DNA of 64,000 bases from Microlunatus speluncae (lineage in GTDB: Bacteria > Actinomycetota > Actinomycetes > Propionibacteriales > Propionibacteriaceae): assembly GCF_009299835.1 (NCBI RefSeq), contig NZ_VKCZ01000008.1:124001-188000 (forward strand), written 5' to 3'. Shown piece after piece: positions 21,956 to 27,728 of the stretch (positions are counted from its first letter, which is position 1; each line of letters begins with the position of its first letter). The notes below the pieces were generated by a model, which made no database searches, was not told the DNA's origin, and saw nothing but the letters and a program-made list of their open reading frames with translations. The position numbers and the translations under genes are program-made.

Positions 21956-22370
21956 AGGCCTGCGGAGTAGGGCCGTTCTCGCGCAACAACCGCAACCGAG
22001 CCAGGGCCTCGTCGAGACTCGGCCGGTGGCCGGCCGGGATCCACCACATCACCATCATCGGGTCGCGCGGACGCTCGAACCAGTCGGTGCGCCGGCGCAG
22101 GAATTCCAGGTGGCCACTGCGATAGACGTAGTCGCGCAACGCCTCCCGATCGGCCCAGACCGACAGATTGATGATCACGTTGTCACCGAAGGGGCGCAGC
22201 GACGTGGCATCCAGACCGACCTCGTCGACCAGGCGCCAGACGTAGCCGGCCGAGCGCTCGGCGAGGGCGTTGATCGGCTTCAGGTTGTCCGTGAAGTCGA
22301 TCATGCGCGGATCGTCGAGCGGGAATTTCAGGGTCGCCACGTTCAGCTCGGCGAGGTGATGACCGGTCAT
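21900..22370 (-). CDS. DUF3291-family protein
   Basis: A 156-residue protein of the DUF3291 family, a dimeric alpha-beta barrel (ABM-like) fold. It has HHLAELNVATLKFPLDDPRM at the start, then NLSVWADREALRDYVYRSGHLEFLRRRTDWF and MVMWWIPAGHRPSLDEALARL. The function is unknown; relatives are occasionally heme-related. It lies 33 bp downstream of the SufR-like regulator on the same strand and may be co-transcribed. Confidence 0.78.
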   Translation of the reverse strand: MTGHHLAELNVATLKFPLDDPRMIDFTDNLKPINALAERSAGYVWRLVDEVGLDATSLRPFGDNVIINLSVWADREALRDYVYRSGHLEFLRRRTDWFERPRDPMMVMWWIPAGHRPSLDEALARLRLLRENGPTPQAFTMREHHLPAGLEAPSGV

Positions 22371-22402
22371 GACCTCACCCCACCACGCCGCATCCTTCTA
22401 TG

Positions 22403-23035
22403 TCAATGATCATTATTTTTAGAGATGGCCACGCAACACAGCCCGGGCCGTGCGTCCATCCGCGCGGTGAGGCCGGAGTCGCCGAGCAGGCCCTCGACCA
22501 GGGCCAGGTTCATGCCACAGACCAACGGCGGAAAGGCCTCGGCCAGCGCGTGGAAGGGACAGTTCCGCAGCCGGAGCACGCCCTCGTCCTCGAACGGCTC
22601 GTACCCCCGGGTCGCCAGCAACTCGGCCGCGCCGACCGGATCACCCTTCCCGCGCAGCGCCTCGCCCCGCCGCCGGGCGGCCGCCTGCAGGTCGGCATCG
22701 AGCCGCGCCTCCTCGGCCACCTCGGCCAGCAGATCGGCGGCCGTCCGGTAGTCGCGCGACGGCAGCGAGACCTGATGCTCGGCGGACGCGCGGCGATAAA
22801 GCTTGGCCGGCCGACCGGCGCCCGGCCCGGACCGCCCGGTCAACCGCCGGCTCTCGGTGATCAACAGCCCGGCGTCGACCAGCTTGTCCAGATGATGCGC
22901 GGCCAGCGTCCGCTGGATGCCGACCGCTTCGGCCGCCGCGTTGCGACTCGCCGGCTCGCCCTGACCGGCGACGAATTCGTACAGCCGGCGCCGGACCGGG
23001 TCCTGCAGCACGCCGATGGCGTCGATGTCCTCCAC
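22403..23035 (-). CDS. SufR-like Fe-S-binding transcriptional regulator
   Basis: A 210-residue protein with an N-terminal winged helix (LQDPVRRRLYEFVAGQGEPASRNAAAEAVGIQRTLAAHHLDKLVDAGLL) and a C-terminal Cys set: Cys159 (NCPFH), Cys173 (VCGMN) and Cys200-Cys201 (GLCCVAI). This spacing resembles iron-sulfur-sensing regulators of the SufR type. It lies 38 bp after a cysteine desulfhydrase gene on the same strand, which suggests a cysteine/sulfide/iron link. Target genes cannot be deduced. Confidence 0.75.
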   Translation of the reverse strand: MEDIDAIGVLQDPVRRRLYEFVAGQGEPASRNAAAEAVGIQRTLAAHHLDKLVDAGLLITESRRLTGRSGPGAGRPAKLYRRASAEHQVSLPSRDYRTAADLLAEVAEEARLDADLQAAARRRGEALRGKGDPVGAAELLATRGYEPFEDEGVLRLRNCPFHALAEAFPPLVCGMNLALVEGLLGDSGLTARMDARPGLCCVAISKNNDH

Positions 23036-23073
23036 CCGGCCAGTCTAAGAACAACCGCCGTCGACGATAGAAG

Positions 23074-24177
23074 TCAGCCGAACTCCGGTTCGTCGGCGAC
23101 GAACTCACCGGTCTGGGCGAAGTGGTCGAGGCGCCCGGCGGGCTCGGTCAGGTCGAGACCCTGCGCCGCGACCCAACCGTCGTCGTAGTAGGTGCCCACG
23201 TACCGCTCGCCGCCGTCGCAGAGCAGGCTGACCACGCTCCCCGACCGGCCCTGCGCGCGCATCCGAGCGATCACGCCCAACGCGGCCCAGACGTTGGTGC
23301 CGGTTGAGCCGCCGACCTTGCGGCCCAGTTGATCAGAGGTCCAGCGCATGGCCGCGACCGACGCTGCGTCGGGCACCCGCACCATGGCGTCGATCACGCC
23401 GCCGACGAACGACGGCTCGACCCGCGGCCGGCCGATCCCTTCGATCCGGGACGGCATCCCGGTGGTGTAGTCGGAGGTGTCCAGCCGCCAGCCCTCGAAG
23501 AAGGCCGAGTTCTCCGGATCGGCGACCATGATCATCGTCGGGTGCCGGCGATAGCGTACGTACCGGCCGATGGTGGCCGACGTGCCGCCGGTGCCGGCAC
23601 TGACCACCACCCAGGCCGGGATCGGATGCGGCTCCGCGGCGAGCTGGTCGAAGATCGACTCGGCGATGTTGTTGTTGCCGCGCCAGTCGGTCGCCCGTTC
23701 GGCGAACGTGAATTGATCAAGGTAGTGACCGCCGCATTCGGCGGCCAGCCGCGCGGCCTCGGCGTACATGTCGGGGGCACGGTCGACGAAGTGGCAGCGG
23801 CCGCCGTACCACTCGATCAGGGCGATCTTCTCCGCGCTGGTCCGGCGCGGCATCACCGCGACGAACGGCAGCCCGAGCAGCCGGGCGAAGTAGGCCTCGC
23901 TGACCGCGGTCGAACCGCTGGAGGCCTCGATCACCGTCGTGTCGCGGCCGATCCAGCCGTTGCAGAGCGCGTACAGGAAGAGGGAGCGGGCCAGTCGGTG
24001 CTTCAGGCTGCCGGTCGGATGGACCGATTCGTCCTTCAGGTAGAGCTGGATGTCGCCGACCTGCTCCGGCAGCGGAAACACGTGCAGATGGGTGTCGGCA
24101 CTGCGATTCGCGTCCGCCTCGACCCGGCGCACGGCCTCGTCGATCCAGGCCCGATCGGTTCGGTCACAGCTCGCCAC
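23074..24177 (-). CDS. cds1: PLP-dependent L-cysteine desulfhydrase (Cds1-like)
   Basis: A 367-residue fold-type II PLP enzyme. The internal aldimine Lys59 is in [24 protein letters not shown] holds the substrate/phosphate loop and [14 protein letters not shown] the PLP phosphate-binding loop. These motifs distinguish the Cds1 group from ordinary cysteine synthases. The reaction is cysteine to sulfide, pyruvate and ammonia. The downstream SufR-like gene supports a sulfur role. It is divergent from the aroG leader, with 30 bp between the starts. Confidence 0.75.
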
Positions 24178-24194
24178 GGGCTCAGCGTATGCGC

Positions 24195-24200
24195 TATCGT
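24195..24200 (+). promoter_or_regulatory. -10-like element for the aroG leader transcript
   Basis: TATCGT is placed 7 nt before the leader GTG, the same geometry as several other genes in this window. The -35 is not evident. Confidence 0.4.
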
Positions 24201-24207
24201 CGTCGAC

Positions 24208-24264
24208 GTGAGTCGTCGTTGGCAGGCGTATTTTGGGTTGGCTCTGGAGGAGCCCGCCGCTTAG
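24208..24264 (+). CDS. Leader peptide of aroG with Trp, Tyr and Phe codons
   Basis: The 18-codon reading frame starts at GTG 24208 and reads (V/M)[17 protein letters not shown], ending at TAG 24262. It carries TGG, TAT and TTT within five codons, the three aromatic amino acids made by the pathway that aroG starts. No ribosome site is present, but TATCGT (24195-24200) lies 7 nt upstream, so the message may be leaderless. The next 60 nt contain a 14-bp stem and an intrinsic terminator. This is direct support for translation-coupled control; in vivo translation is inferred. Confidence 0.75.
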
Positions 24265-24294
24265 TACGCACGCCGCGCAACCTCCGGAGCCAAC
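24237..24294 (+). promoter_or_regulatory. Leader RNA stem overlapping the leader peptide codons
   Basis: Bases 24237-24250 (GTTGGCTCTGGAGG) can pair with 24281-24294 (CCTCCGGAGCCAAC) over 14 bp, with one G-U pair. The loop is 30 nt and the left arm lies 3 nt after the Phe codon. A ribosome paused at the Trp/Tyr/Phe codons would melt this stem. Confidence 0.7.
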
Positions 24295-24322
24295 AAGGCA
24301 GAGACATTCCGTCTCTGCCTTT
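24295..24322 (+). terminator. Attenuator terminator in the aroG leader
   Basis: AAGGCAGAGAC pairs with GTCTCTGCCTT over 11 bp around a 5-nt loop, followed by T residues. It lies 30 nt after the leader peptide stop and 62 nt before aroG, the expected place for an attenuator. Confidence 0.8.
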
Positions 24323-24384
24323 CGTCATTCCTCGACGGGTTGGCAGCGGAGACTCACCGGCCCGTCGGAAACGAAGGGACTGTC

Positions 24385-25467
24385 ATGATCAAGACCCACG
24401 ATCTGCGGATCCGTGGATTCGAACCCCTCCCCACCCCGGCCGAGTTGCGCGGCCGGCTGCCGCTCGGCACCGAGGTCGAAGGACTGGTGACGACCAGTCG
24501 GCGCGAGGTCGAGGCCGTGCTGCGCGGGGACGACGATCGGCTGCTGGTCGTCGTCGGGCCGTGCTCGGTGCACGATCCGGAAGCCGCGCTGGAGTACGCC
24601 CGCCGGCTGGTCATCGAGGCCGAACGGCACGCCGACCGGCTGTTGATCGTGATGCGGGTCTACTTCGAGAAGCCGCGTACGGTCGCCGGCTGGAAGGGCT
24701 TGATCAACGACCCGCAGCTGGACGGCACCCATCGGGTCGCCGAAGGGTTGGAACTGGCTCGCGGGGTGTTGCGCGACATCACCACCCTCGGCCTCCCGGT
24801 CGGTTGCGAGTTCCTCGAGCCGATCAGCCCGCATTACATCGCCGACGCGATCAGCTGGGGCGCGATCGGCGCCCGGACCACGGAGAGCCAGGTGCACCGG
24901 CAGCTCGCCTCGGGGCTGTCGATGCCGATCGGGTTCAAGAACGGCACCGACGGCGAGGTGAGCGTGGCGGTCGACGGGGTCCGGTCCGCGGCGCAGCACC
25001 AGACCTTCTTCGGCATCGACGACGCCGGCCAGACCTGTGTCGTGTCCACCACCGGCAACGAGTACGGGCACGTGATCCTGCGCGGCGGCCGGTCCGGACC
25101 GAACTACGACTCCGCCTCGCTGGCCGCCGCCGCGGCCCGGCTGGCCGACGCCGGATTGCCGGCCCGGGTCGTCGTCGACGCGAGCCACGCCAACAGCGGC
25201 AAGGACCACGTCCGACAGGCCGAGGTGATCACCGAACTGGCCGGGCAGATCGCCGCCGGTGATCCGATCTCCGGGGTCATGATCGAGAGCTTCCTGGAGC
25301 CGGGCCGGCAGACCCTGACCGACGCCGGCCGGGCCGGCCTGGTCTTCGGCCAGAGCATCACCGACGCCTGCCTGGGCTGGGAGCAGACCGAGACGGCCCT
25401 CGACCTGCTCGCCTTCGCCTCCGCCCGGCGGAGCGCGCCCGCGACGGGAGCTGCGGTGGCGACCTGA
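24385..25467 (+). CDS. aroG: Class I 3-deoxy-7-phosphoheptulonate (DAHP) synthase
   Basis: A 360-residue enzyme joining phosphoenolpyruvate and erythrose 4-phosphate, the first step of the shikimate pathway. It has VVVGPCSVHDPEAALEYA (metal Cys), MRVYFEKPRT (PEP contact), GARTTESQVHRQLASGL, MPIGFKNGTDG, VVDASHANSGKD and GVMIESFLEPG, all typical of the AroF/G/H group. GAAGGGA precedes ATG 24385. The leader peptide with Trp/Tyr/Phe codons and the intrinsic terminator upstream suggest feedback at the transcription level. The 3' end is followed by a hairpin shared with the convergent MFS gene. Confidence 0.95.
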   Translation: MIKTHDLRIRGFEPLPTPAELRGRLPLGTEVEGLVTTSRREVEAVLRGDDDRLLVVVGPCSVHDPEAALEYARRLVIEAERHADRLLIVMRVYFEKPRTVAGWKGLINDPQLDGTHRVAEGLELARGVLRDITTLGLPVGCEFLEPISPHYIADAISWGAIGARTTESQVHRQLASGLSMPIGFKNGTDGEVSVAVDGVRSAAQHQTFFGIDDAGQTCVVSTTGNEYGHVILRGGRSGPNYDSASLAAAAARLADAGLPARVVVDASHANSGKDHVRQAEVITELAGQIAAGDPISGVMIESFLEPGRQTLTDAGRAGLVFGQSITDACLGWEQTETALDLLAFASARRSAPATGAAVAT

Positions 25468-25485
25468 GCGGGAACGCCCGCTCGG
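25468..25485 (+). other. Short hairpin after aroG
   Basis: GAGCGGG and CCCGCTC pair across a short loop immediately after the stop. There is no T-run, so it may be a minor stabilising stem. Confidence 0.4.
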
Positions 25486-25506
25486 CTCAGACCCCTTCCG
25501 TTTCTT

Positions 25507-25575
25507 GCCGAGCCGTCACTTGTGCACCGACACGCCGCGAAAACCGGTGCACTAGTGACGGGTCGGCGGGGTTTT
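25507..25575 (+). terminator. Convergent-end hairpin and terminator (type with conserved CGACACGCCGC loop)
   Basis: The 23-nt arms 25507-25529 and 25545-25567 pair at 21 of 23 positions. A GGGGTTTTT follows, so it terminates the plus-strand aroG transcript. The 3' arm spans the stop of the convergent MFS gene. The conserved outer segments GCCGTCAC and GTGACGGGTC and the loop CGACACGCCGC recur at 27733-27786 with a different stem. Confidence 0.8.
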
Positions 25576-26892
25576 TAGGGCGGTGAGGGTGAAAGCTGCG
25601 GCGGCGGCTAGGAGGGTTAGTCGGGTGGTGGGGACGAAGGCGGGGGTGGTGGCGGGGCCGGCCAGGGTGCCGAAGCCGGCAACGCCGAGGGCGCCGCCGA
25701 GTTGGCGGGCGGTGTTGGACAGGCCGGCGGCGGTTCCGGGGCGGTCGGGCAGGGCGGCGACCGTGGCGGCGACGACGGCCGGGGTGAGCAGGCCGAGGCC
25801 GACGCCCCAGAGGACGAGGCCGAGGACTCCGGTCGGCGTCGCGACGGACGGGCTGGCCGCAATCGTCCCGAAGCCCAGGGCGCCGAGGGCGAGGCCGGCG
25901 GTCGCGGGCCGCCCGGGCCCGTACCGCTGGGTCAACCGGCCGGCGAACCGGCCGAGCAGCGGCAGCGGCAGGAAGGCGGGCAACAGCCACAGGCCGGTTG
26001 CCCAGGGCGATCGGTGATCGACGGTCTGCAGCCACTGGGTCAGCAGGAACAGGGAGCCGAGGGAGCAGAGGTTCATCACGCCGGCGGTGATCAGCGAGCT
26101 CGCGACGCCCGGCCGGCGCAGCAGCGGCAGCGGCAACAGCGGCGGGTCGAAGGTCCGTTCCCGGCGAACGAAGATCAACGCCAACGGCACCGCGACCATG
26201 ATCGCGATCAGGGACGCCAACGGCCGCTCCCGCAGCTCGATCACGGCGAACGTGATCATGGCCAGCATCGCCACCGCCAGCACGGCACCGGCCAGATCGA
26301 GCCGTCCGGTCGGGGCGGGCGGCCGCCGCCCGGCCGGACCGTACCGGGCGATGATGATCATCGCGACGGCACCGATCGGGAGGTTGATCAGGAAGATCAA
26401 CGGCCAGCCGGCCAGACTCACCAGCACGCCGCCGATCAACGGGCCGGCGGGCAGCGCGATCGCTCCGACGGCGGCCCAGGTCCCGATCGCGCGAGCCCGG
26501 CCCGGCTCCGGAGCGGCGTCGGTGATCATGGCCAGGGTGCCGGGCAGGGCGAGCGCCGCGGCGGCCCCCTGCACCGCGCGGGCCAGGGACAACAGCGGCA
26601 GCGAGGGACACAGCGCGCAGGCGAGCGAGGCCAGCCCGAAGCCGGCCAGGCCGAGCAGGACCAGCCGGCGGTGGCCGATCCGGTCGCCGACCCCTCCGGC
26701 GACCAGCAACAGCGAGGCCAGCGGCAGGGCGTACGCATCGACGACCCAGGCCAGCCCCGACGCTCCCGGCGCCAGGGCCGTGCCGATCGACGGCAGCGCG
26801 ACATTGACCGCGGTCACGTCGAGCAGGATCAGGAAGTAGCCGGCGCAAAGCGCCGCGGTCAGCAGCATCGCCTGGAATCGTCGCAGGGACAT
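25552..26892 (-). CDS. MFS multidrug transporter (DHA2/14-TM type)
   Basis: A 446-residue permease of the EmrB/QacA branch. MSLRRFQAMLLTAALCAGYFLILLDVTAVNVALPSIG holds the family motif D1 (LDxTxxNxALP), and GDRIGHRRLVLLG is the loop 2-3 motif. About 14 hydrophobic helices are seen. Proton-coupled export of drugs or metabolites is the known role. It is divergent from an ArsR-type regulator and a 22-bp imperfect palindrome lies between them, so substrate-induced expression is likely. The stop is covered by the terminator hairpin of aroG. Confidence 0.88.
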   Translation of the reverse strand: MSLRRFQAMLLTAALCAGYFLILLDVTAVNVALPSIGTALAPGASGLAWVVDAYALPLASLLLVAGGVGDRIGHRRLVLLGLAGFGLASLACALCPSLPLLSLARAVQGAAAALALPGTLAMITDAAPEPGRARAIGTWAAVGAIALPAGPLIGGVLVSLAGWPLIFLINLPIGAVAMIIIARYGPAGRRPPAPTGRLDLAGAVLAVAMLAMITFAVIELRERPLASLIAIMVAVPLALIFVRRERTFDPPLLPLPLLRRPGVASSLITAGVMNLCSLGSLFLLTQWLQTVDHRSPWATGLWLLPAFLPLPLLGRFAGRLTQRYGPGRPATAGLALGALGFGTIAASPSVATPTGVLGLVLWGVGLGLLTPAVVAATVAALPDRPGTAAGLSNTARQLGGALGVAGFGTLAGPATTPAFVPTTRLTLLAAAAAFTLTALKTPPTRH

Positions 26893-26913
26893 CGATCCAG
26901 CCTGTCCCCGGAA

Positions 26914-26935
26914 CGCTTCGATCCCGGTCGAAACG
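26914..26935. promoter_or_regulatory. ArsR operator between the MFS and regulator genes
   Basis: CGCTTCGA-N6-TCGAAACG is palindromic with one mismatch per arm. It lies midway between the divergent starts at 26892 and 26958, so it can block both promoters. Confidence 0.65.
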
Positions 26936-26957
26936 ATTCGGGCCTAGCCTGGGCCGC

Positions 26958-27728
26958 ATGGCTACGGAAGAGCTCGGCGAGCCCGATCTGGCCGGGGTGG
27001 CGGCGGCACTCGGCGACCCGCGCCGGATCAAGATCCTGTACGCCCTCGCCGACGGCGCCGCGTTGCCGGCGAGCCGGCTGGCGACCGAGGCCGGTGTCTC
27101 CGCGTCCACCGTGAGCACCCACCTGGCCGGCCTGCTGGCCAACGGTCTGGTCCGGGTCGAGCCGCAGGGCCGGTTCCGGTTCTACCGGCTGGCCGGCGAC
27201 GACGTGGAGGGGATCCTCGAGGCGCTGGCCCGGGTGGCGCCGCGGAAGCCGGTCACTTCGCTGCGAGAGCACACCCGCAGCGCCGCGCTGCGCACCGGCC
27301 GGACCTGCTATCGGCATCTGGCCGGCCGGCTCGGCGTCGACCTCTTCGCCGGCCTGCTGCGGCTCGGCTGGATCGGCGGCGGCGACGGCCGGCACGATCC
27401 CACGATCGCCGGCGACCGGCTGTCGGCGCCCGGCCACGGTGACCAGTATCGGCTGACCGTCACCGGCACCGCAGGCTTGGCCGAGCTCGGTGTGGATCCC
27501 GATCCGGTCACCGACGCGGCACCGCTGCGCTATTGCGTGGACTGGACCGAGCAACGCCACCATCTCGCCGGCAGGCTCGGCGCCGCGATCGCCGACCGAT
27601 TGCTGGAGCGGGACTGGGTCCGGCGCGGCACGGTCCCGCGCAGTGTCCGGCTGACCCAGGCGGGCGAGACCGGGCTCGATCGGGTCGGTCTGGTGTCGTC
27701 CGGTCAGCTCGCCGGCCGGAGCTCGTGA
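26958..27728 (+). CDS. ArsR-family regulator (long, two-domain)
   Basis: A 256-residue product. The N-terminal winged helix is LAGVAAALGDPRRIKILYALADGAALPASRLATEAGVSASTVSTHLAGLLANGLVRVEPQGRFRFYRLAG. The extra C-terminal part contains RTCYRHLAGRLGVDLFAGLLRLG and a later RYCVDWTEQRHHLAGRLGAAIADRLLERDWV, typical of ArsR regulators with a second domain that control MFS exporters. TAGCCT (26945-26950) lies 7 nt before ATG 26958, suggesting a leaderless message. It likely controls the divergent exporter. Confidence 0.85.
   Translation: MATEELGEPDLAGVAAALGDPRRIKILYALADGAALPASRLATEAGVSASTVSTHLAGLLANGLVRVEPQGRFRFYRLAGDDVEGILEALARVAPRKPVTSLREHTRSAALRTGRTCYRHLAGRLGVDLFAGLLRLGWIGGGDGRHDPTIAGDRLSAPGHGDQYRLTVTGTAGLAELGVDPDPVTDAAPLRYCVDWTEQRHHLAGRLGAAIADRLLERDWVRRGTVPRSVRLTQAGETGLDRVGLVSSGQLAGRSS

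Follow-up and report, generated by a model that had tools for sequence, protein, structure and literature searches.

A predicted leader-peptide attenuator with codons for three aromatic amino acids upstream of the class I DAHP synthase gene of Microlunatus speluncae

Flux towards every aromatic amino acid is set by DAHP synthase, and a gene for this enzyme that lies behind a short frame rich in aromatic codons poses the question of whether one leader can count tryptophan, tyrosine and phenylalanine together. Such a gene is present in a 64,000-nucleotide stretch of the M. speluncae genome (contig NZ_VKCZ01000008.1, positions 124,001 to 188,000), referred to here as the window. A preliminary description of the window had named a DAHP synthase at this position, and its assignment to class I was confirmed: aroG (24385..25467, on the + strand, as are the leader elements described below) has an ATG start and 360 codons, and its product matches TIGR00034 at 466.8 bits. 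The product also passes the NCBIfam cut-off for AroH, the Trp-sensitive type (468 vs 463 bits). It is the sole class I match found in its genome, where one class II DAHP synthase match lies on another contig (G000:C4:88922-90217), and class I aroG is patchy in the genus (6 of the 19 other genomes searched). A leader that counts all three aromatic amino acids would explain the tuning of the second enzyme in bacteria that have two DAHP synthases and would constitute a regulatory target additional to feedback inhibition. Between aroG and a convergent MFS transporter gene lies a palindromic repeat (25509-25565), perhaps a two-way terminator; on each strand it weakly resembles a microRNA model, scoring under the gathering threshold.

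The leader frame and its distribution

The predicted leader ORF (24208..24264), read from the sequence, has a GTG start, 18 codons and a TAG stop (24262-24264), with codons for Trp at 24220-22 (W5), Tyr at 24229-31 (Y8) and Phe at 24232-34 (F9); it is thus a short frame carrying codons for the pathway's own amino acids. This 18-codon frame had been described before, and a fixed criterion (no more than 32 codons, and three or more aromatic residues within a run of six) now sets it apart from chance: frames of this kind occur upstream of aroG at 75 of 103 loci, at none of the 103 when the upstream region is reverse-complemented, and at one of 101 downstream of the gene, two loci being too short for this control. 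Among 70 non-redundant actinobacterial leaders, 67 contain Trp, Tyr and Phe, which bears out the earlier view that an attenuator precedes aroG and that its leader peptide contains all three amino acids. On average 3.9 residues of a leader are aromatic in its own frame, whereas the other two frames give 1.8 and 1.4. This codon content leads us to infer that all three aromatic amino acids are sensed.

When 57 related genomes, that of M. speluncae included, were searched at the protein level, aroG was recovered in 24, one gene being split into two matches. Conservation of the short frame in relatives had been proposed as a check on the leader, and an aromatic-rich frame stands upstream of aroG in all 24 of these close relatives. 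Farther afield, among the best 80 aroG loci listed from named genomes and judged by reading, such a frame was seen at 50: 23 of 31 in Actinobacteria and 27 of 49 elsewhere, the latter loci being mostly from Beta- and Gammaproteobacteria. No leader was recognized by reading at the remaining 8 actinobacterial and 22 other loci of these 80. The eight in Actinobacteria are from Gryllotalpicola (one), Nocardiopsis (two), Bifidobacteriaceae (three) and Streptosporangia-type MAGs (two, one of them with the codons and no stop). In a Streptosporangiaceae MAG (L035), RWYWRF-type codons lie about 180 nt 5' of aroG, with TTA in place of the TGA stop of its relatives; by eye the frame continues past the usual stop, a difference that may reflect loss of the stop or an error in the sequence.

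The wording of the window's type of leader was searched for with the pattern RWYxYFxxALEEP or ALEGP. With one mismatch allowed it was found in 13 of the 293 genomes searched in the order, and with none in 5 of 394 genomes of the class, in 44 of 120 genomes of one family and in 3 of 120 of another. All 44 exact matches examined (out of 58 distinct exact matches) lie directly before aroG, a count that includes the window and six relatives known before; the set retrieved comprised 46 loci, the other two matching with a mismatch. As for the WQAYF motif, whose conservation had been put forward as a check, the aromatic cluster is kept, while the exact wording was seen only in the window and in the closest relative, L002 (whose row in alignment A1 lacks the 5' end), the rest of this type reading mostly RWY-x-YF. 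The leaders were assigned by eye to groups I to V. No NCBIfam or Pfam match was obtained for six leader peptides of relatives, and Rfam returned no leader family for positions 22000-27000 of the window up to an E value of 1 or for nine loci up to 0.1.

An arrest peptide, which had been offered as one way in which the leader might act, is not supported, since the residues past the aromatic cluster (LEEP, PGGA, PGGREA, PLAEEG) vary from group to group and their codons lie on RNA arms.

The GTG start has a −10-like hexamer, TATCGT (24195..24200), 7 nt to its 5' side, and no convincing −35 element was seen by eye upstream of it. The suggestion that the frame may be leaderless gains weight from the relatives: of 76 actinobacterial leaders, 72 have TANNNT ending 5-8 nt 5' of the start codon, compared with a mean of 0.6 in shifted windows, and so do 17 of 27 leaders outside Actinobacteria, compared with 0.5. 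Shine-Dalgarno-like matches precede the start in 15 of the 76 and in one of the 27. On the strength of this promoter spacing the window's leader frame is probably leaderless, with its start codon at the 5' end of the transcript. The divergent gene (23074-24177, − strand) encodes a Cds1-like L-cysteine desulfhydrase, at 636 bits against a cut-off of 600. Since 30 nt separate its start from that of the leader, the two promoters probably overlap.

RNA arms and selection on the helices

Downstream of the aromatic codons the transcript contains a series of segments with more than one possible partner. Arm A (GTTGGCTCTGGAGG, 24237..24250), within the leader ORF, pairs over 14 bp with arm B (CCTCCGGAGCCAAC, 24281..24294). 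This is the 14-bp stem that had been reported earlier; it is present, with its left arm 2 nt past the Phe codon and not 3. Across the loci, too, arm A begins most often 2 nt past the last aromatic codon (36 of 70). A local alternative within and beyond A would pair GGCTC (24240-24244) with GAGCC (24250-24254). Directly at the end of B begins the terminator-like hairpin T (24295..24321; 24295-24305 with 24311-24321, 11 bp). The 11-bp hairpin of the earlier intrinsic terminator call is thus there, ending at 24321 and not 24322, and it is followed by a poor U-tract (TCGTCATT).

Beyond T lies arm C (GTTGGCAGCGGAG, 24339..24351), a near-copy of A, so that arm B could pair with either; the window reads GGGTTGGCTCTGGAG at A and GGGTTGGCAGCGGAG at C, which agree at 12 of 15 positions. 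Pairing of B with C encloses T. The earlier remark that no classic antiterminator is obvious holds insofar as the 14-bp stem misses T and no competing partner for T was found, but it had overlooked this second partner of B at 24339-24351. Farther along, C can form a hairpin with D (GACGGGTTGG, 24334-24343, with CCGGCCCGTC, 24357-24366), and D can pair with the Shine-Dalgarno sequence of aroG, E (CCCGTC, 24361-24366, with GAAGGG, 24373-24378; 5 of 6 pairs). At the 5' side, a helix termed 1:2 would join GCGTA at the aromatic codons (24226-24230) to TACGC just past the stop (24265-24269); it is not the favoured fold of the window taken alone.

In the 70 loci the best downstream partner of B begins 9-26 nt behind T and reaches 14 pairs in one locus (L113). 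Because a best B duplex always exists, B was compared with shuffled C: z lies below −1.5 in 50 of the 70 loci, is −1.5 in the window, and is near 0 in two loci (L015, L150). Hairpin T is absent from six loci (L040, L043, L045, L067, L069, L079; Nocardia, Rhodococcus, Amycolatopsis and Antrihabitans), in which B and C form one direct hairpin, and this suggests that T is dispensable to B:C. These six are counted among the 76 leaders of the promoter comparison above and are excluded from the swap tests that follow.

In the swap test the pairing energy of two segments from one locus is compared with that of segments taken from different loci, arm pairs that are not neighbours serving as control. 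It was applied to 70 of 78 loci after removal of near-duplicates; Corynebacterium-like loci are neither in this set nor among the 76 leaders of the promoter comparison. The hairpin finder sometimes took C:D or a longer helix as T, and six loci (L151, L038, L119, L107, L111, L037) were set by hand. With kinship of the loci ignored in z, every helix passes: A:B scores −11.4 and T −20.4, and with non-overlapping segments 1:2 scores −7.8, B:C −6.3 (−8.1 with wider segments), C:D −6.7 and D:E −5.7. Pairs outside the model give 0.0 (A:D), −0.9 (B:D), +4.0 (B:E) and −1.9 (C:E). The scores of A:B, T, A:D and A:C, and the B:C score with wider segments, come from a run in which the C and D segments overlapped by 8 nt, all others from non-overlapping segments. 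In that overlapping run A with C reached −5.2, which the model proposed below does not predict; perhaps both arms mirror B and are partly self-complementary. Within type I the values are −5.9 (1:2), −4.2 (C:D), −3.4 (D:E) and −2.7 (B:C), with the non-model pair C:E weakly at −2.7, and within group II they are −1.3, −2.9, −2.8 and −1.8, respectively, for the same four helices. B:C was not significant within groups IV and V. The leader thus contains mutually exclusive helices with shared or overlapping arms, of which 1:2, A:B, B:C, C:D and D:E each stand out in this comparison across the 70 loci, kinship being disregarded.

Compensatory change in the stems had also been named as a check. In the type I alignment (48 rows, 47 distinct), the cells are paired at 96.0% for A:B, 93.8% for T and 81.5% for C:D. 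Double changes number 82, as opposed to 23.8 by shuffling, and fall mostly in T (65), the others being in A:B (9) and C:D (8); the covariation score was attained by none of 500 shuffles. Both stems of the earlier description therefore show the double changes looked for. Seven of the 10 pairs of T are changed on both sides, and none of the 7 pairs of B:C is so changed in type I.

A proposed relay and its alternatives

These data have led us to favour, with moderate confidence, a reading in which class I aroG is under ribosome-mediated attenuation and the leader senses the charged tRNAs of Trp, Tyr and Phe jointly. Transcription would begin at or beside the leader GTG, which would let the ribosome enter without a Shine-Dalgarno site. 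A ribosome idling on the W, Y or F codons would break helix 1:2 and leave arm A free; A would then pair with B, C with D, and the Shine-Dalgarno sequence E would be left free for expression of aroG. When aromatic amino acids are plentiful, the ribosome would reach the stop codon and cover A, B would pair with C, and D would be released to sequester the aroG Shine-Dalgarno sequence, while the abutting hairpin T would contribute premature termination. Comparison among loci supports the existence of the leader, a leaderless start and selection acting on every helix; starvation as the signal, the identity of the ON state and both outputs are what we infer. A polarity in which the stalled ribosome means ON fits a biosynthetic gene. 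More tentatively, we suggest that a five-helix relay could carry the position of the ribosome over some 150 nt to the aroG ribosome-binding site, with T nested in the third helix as a transcriptional brake, and that a simpler proteobacterial version ends in an ordinary intrinsic terminator. Such a layout would make the reach of a stalled-ribosome signal along an RNA testable.

Folding under a ribosome mask is in part consistent with this relay. With a mask ending 12 nt past the first base of the P-site codon, A:B is favoured over B:C at 63 of 85 Trp, 99 of 109 Tyr and 59 of 81 Phe codons. Once the mask extends to 16 nt, B:C prevails for Phe stalls, at 62 of 81 codons as against 19 for A:B. A mask at the stop codon covers A, a trivial result that was excluded from the evidence. 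In a leader free of ribosomes A:B is favoured at 44 of 70 loci, the window among them, so that an untranslated leader would often be ON.

Release of the Shine-Dalgarno sequence was not seen in equilibrium folding of the 70 loci: its mean unpaired probability is 0.407 with B blocked and 0.387 with B free, opening with B blocked rising in 15 loci and falling in 10 (Wilcoxon p 0.42). In the window the corresponding values are 0.46 and 0.27. A kinetic, cotranscriptional switch could still work. Likewise, no competitor of T emerged when each of four segments (the start of the leader, A, the stretch following A, and B) was set against both arms of T and its tail, none going beyond z −2.8, and hairpin T forms whatever the state of B. 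The A:B stem may act on T through stacking or pausing. In the window T is probably a partial terminator, a view drawn by analogy from the T-run and the abutting A:B stem of Corynebacterium-like loci and from the attenuation that reviews describe for aroR (see below).

The abutment of A:B on T is also what the leading alternative is built on. Pure transcription attenuation at T with the opposite polarity, which we consider unlikely, would have A:B stack on T and strengthen it as the OFF state; stalling at the final Tyr or Phe codon would place the ribosome over A and leave B open, polymerase would read through, and B:C, C:D and D:E would be secondary. The geometry accords with this, the gap between A:B and T being 0 nt at 49 of the 70 loci and at most 2 nt at 69, and about 0 nt in the 11 parsed Corynebacterium-like loci, where T is followed by a T-run. 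The closeness of A to the last aromatic codon noted above points the same way, since it is why the 16-nt mask covers much of A and turns Phe stalls towards B:C, as does the preference for A:B in the ribosome-free fold. Against it, stalls at Trp and at the first Tyr would leave A free and go unsensed, yet these codons are kept; helix 1:2 would have no purpose and the covariation of C, D and E would be unneeded; and the T of the window has a poor U-tract.

A still less probable account accepts the RNA relay as real and has it read by an RNA-binding protein or a metabolite, the short frame mainly holding a ribosome at the 5' end. A precedent exists in the actinobacterial LEU element, where changes to the leucine codons contradicted classical attenuation in experiments cited in the excerpted text of a survey (PMC1262725). 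The concentration of aromatic codons in frame and the retention of W, Y and F in 67 of 70 leaders speak against a passive role for the peptide, as does the recurrence in Proteobacteria of an aromatic leader with the same A/B logic and a different sequence. That the short frame arose by chance or is unrelated, with an aroG promoter downstream of a hairpin that belongs elsewhere, would agree with the poor U-tract 3' of T, but leader conservation, the controls, the promoter layout, covariation and the swap tests make it very improbable.

Relation to known attenuators

The closest known system to the ribosome-mediated attenuator favoured here is aroR-aroF of Corynebacterium glutamicum, which excerpts of later papers cite to Neshat et al. 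2014 (PMC11802643, PMC11525245, PMC7356990). According to review passages, aroR attenuates aroF transcription when Phe is present (PMC11525245, PMC11802643), and another excerpt gives Phe-Tyr-Phe for the leader before aroF (PMC4046766). As far as these excerpts go, the window shares with it a leader peptide with clustered aromatic codons, Tyr and Phe among them, before a DAHP synthase gene. It differs by the addition of Trp and by arms C, D and E that reach the Shine-Dalgarno sequence, Corynebacterium-like loci having been parsed for A:B and T. In the genus that we take to be Corynebacterium, aroG occurs in 14 of 61 genomes and an RFYF leader stands at 12 of the 14 loci; 11 of these 12 were parsed, and in them, as in the window, the A:B stem adjoins the hairpin. 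There the hairpin carries a T-run, unlike the window's T with its poor U-tract. Over the 12 nt counted from 3 nt before the stem end, type I leaders average 4.9 T residues, compared with 6.9 in group IV and 6.8 in group V. Judged from conservation and codon content, the window leader appears to be a real, conserved aromatic attenuator of the same kind as aroR, and comparison among loci supports two elements that set it apart: the third amino acid and the relay to the Shine-Dalgarno sequence.

Other actinobacterial leaders show parts of this design. In excerpts of two papers (PMC1262725, PMC8079986), the trp attenuators of Streptomyces and Corynebacterium have codons for the product amino acid and alternative hairpins, and trpL1 of S. 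lividans is described as leaderless, all features shared with the window; unlike the window, they are described there as using Trp only and as having a terminator and an antiterminator that share complementary segments. The LEU element of actinobacterial leuA resembles the window in joining a leader ORF to alternative structures that reach the gene's Shine-Dalgarno sequence, as the excerpted survey presents it (PMC1262725); there it is the leucine codons that pair with the Shine-Dalgarno sequence, and a pseudoknot was proposed, whereas in the window the link would run through further arms. The same survey, of 2005, covers trp, cys, leu and ilv elements and in its excerpted text reports no conserved regulatory RNA structure ahead of operons for phenylalanine or tyrosine (PMC1262725). 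None of the eight S. lividans leaders in the excerpts of PMC8079986 stands before a DAHP synthase. No description of the wider aroG leader family was found among the open-access papers searched.

The 27 leaders outside Actinobacteria, chosen for having a visible leader and including one from an uncultured bacterium of unknown phylum, are built more simply. In all 27 a hairpin is followed by T5 or more and an arm in the ORF pairs with the hairpin's left arm, the best ORF-arm duplex having −10.8 to −22.1 kcal/mol; as parsed, B is common to A:B and the terminator. In this set swap z is −3.8 for A:B, −5.2 for B:C and +1.9 for the control. The arrangement, as read from sequence, fits the textbook antiterminator and terminator. 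E. coli trpL and pheL are each devoted to one amino acid and have Shine-Dalgarno-led leaders. The window shares with them the logic of exclusive helices, and the proteobacterial aroG leaders fit it directly. If the proposed reading is true, this simpler version ending in an intrinsic terminator in Proteobacteria would place the aroG leader among the amino acid attenuators of widest distribution and make it an integrator of three amino acids.

By eye, arm A in leaders outside Actinobacteria (L047-L105) lies between TTCTC and GAGAG or between TTTTCC and GGAAGG, and a helix of the 1:2 kind could be present there too.
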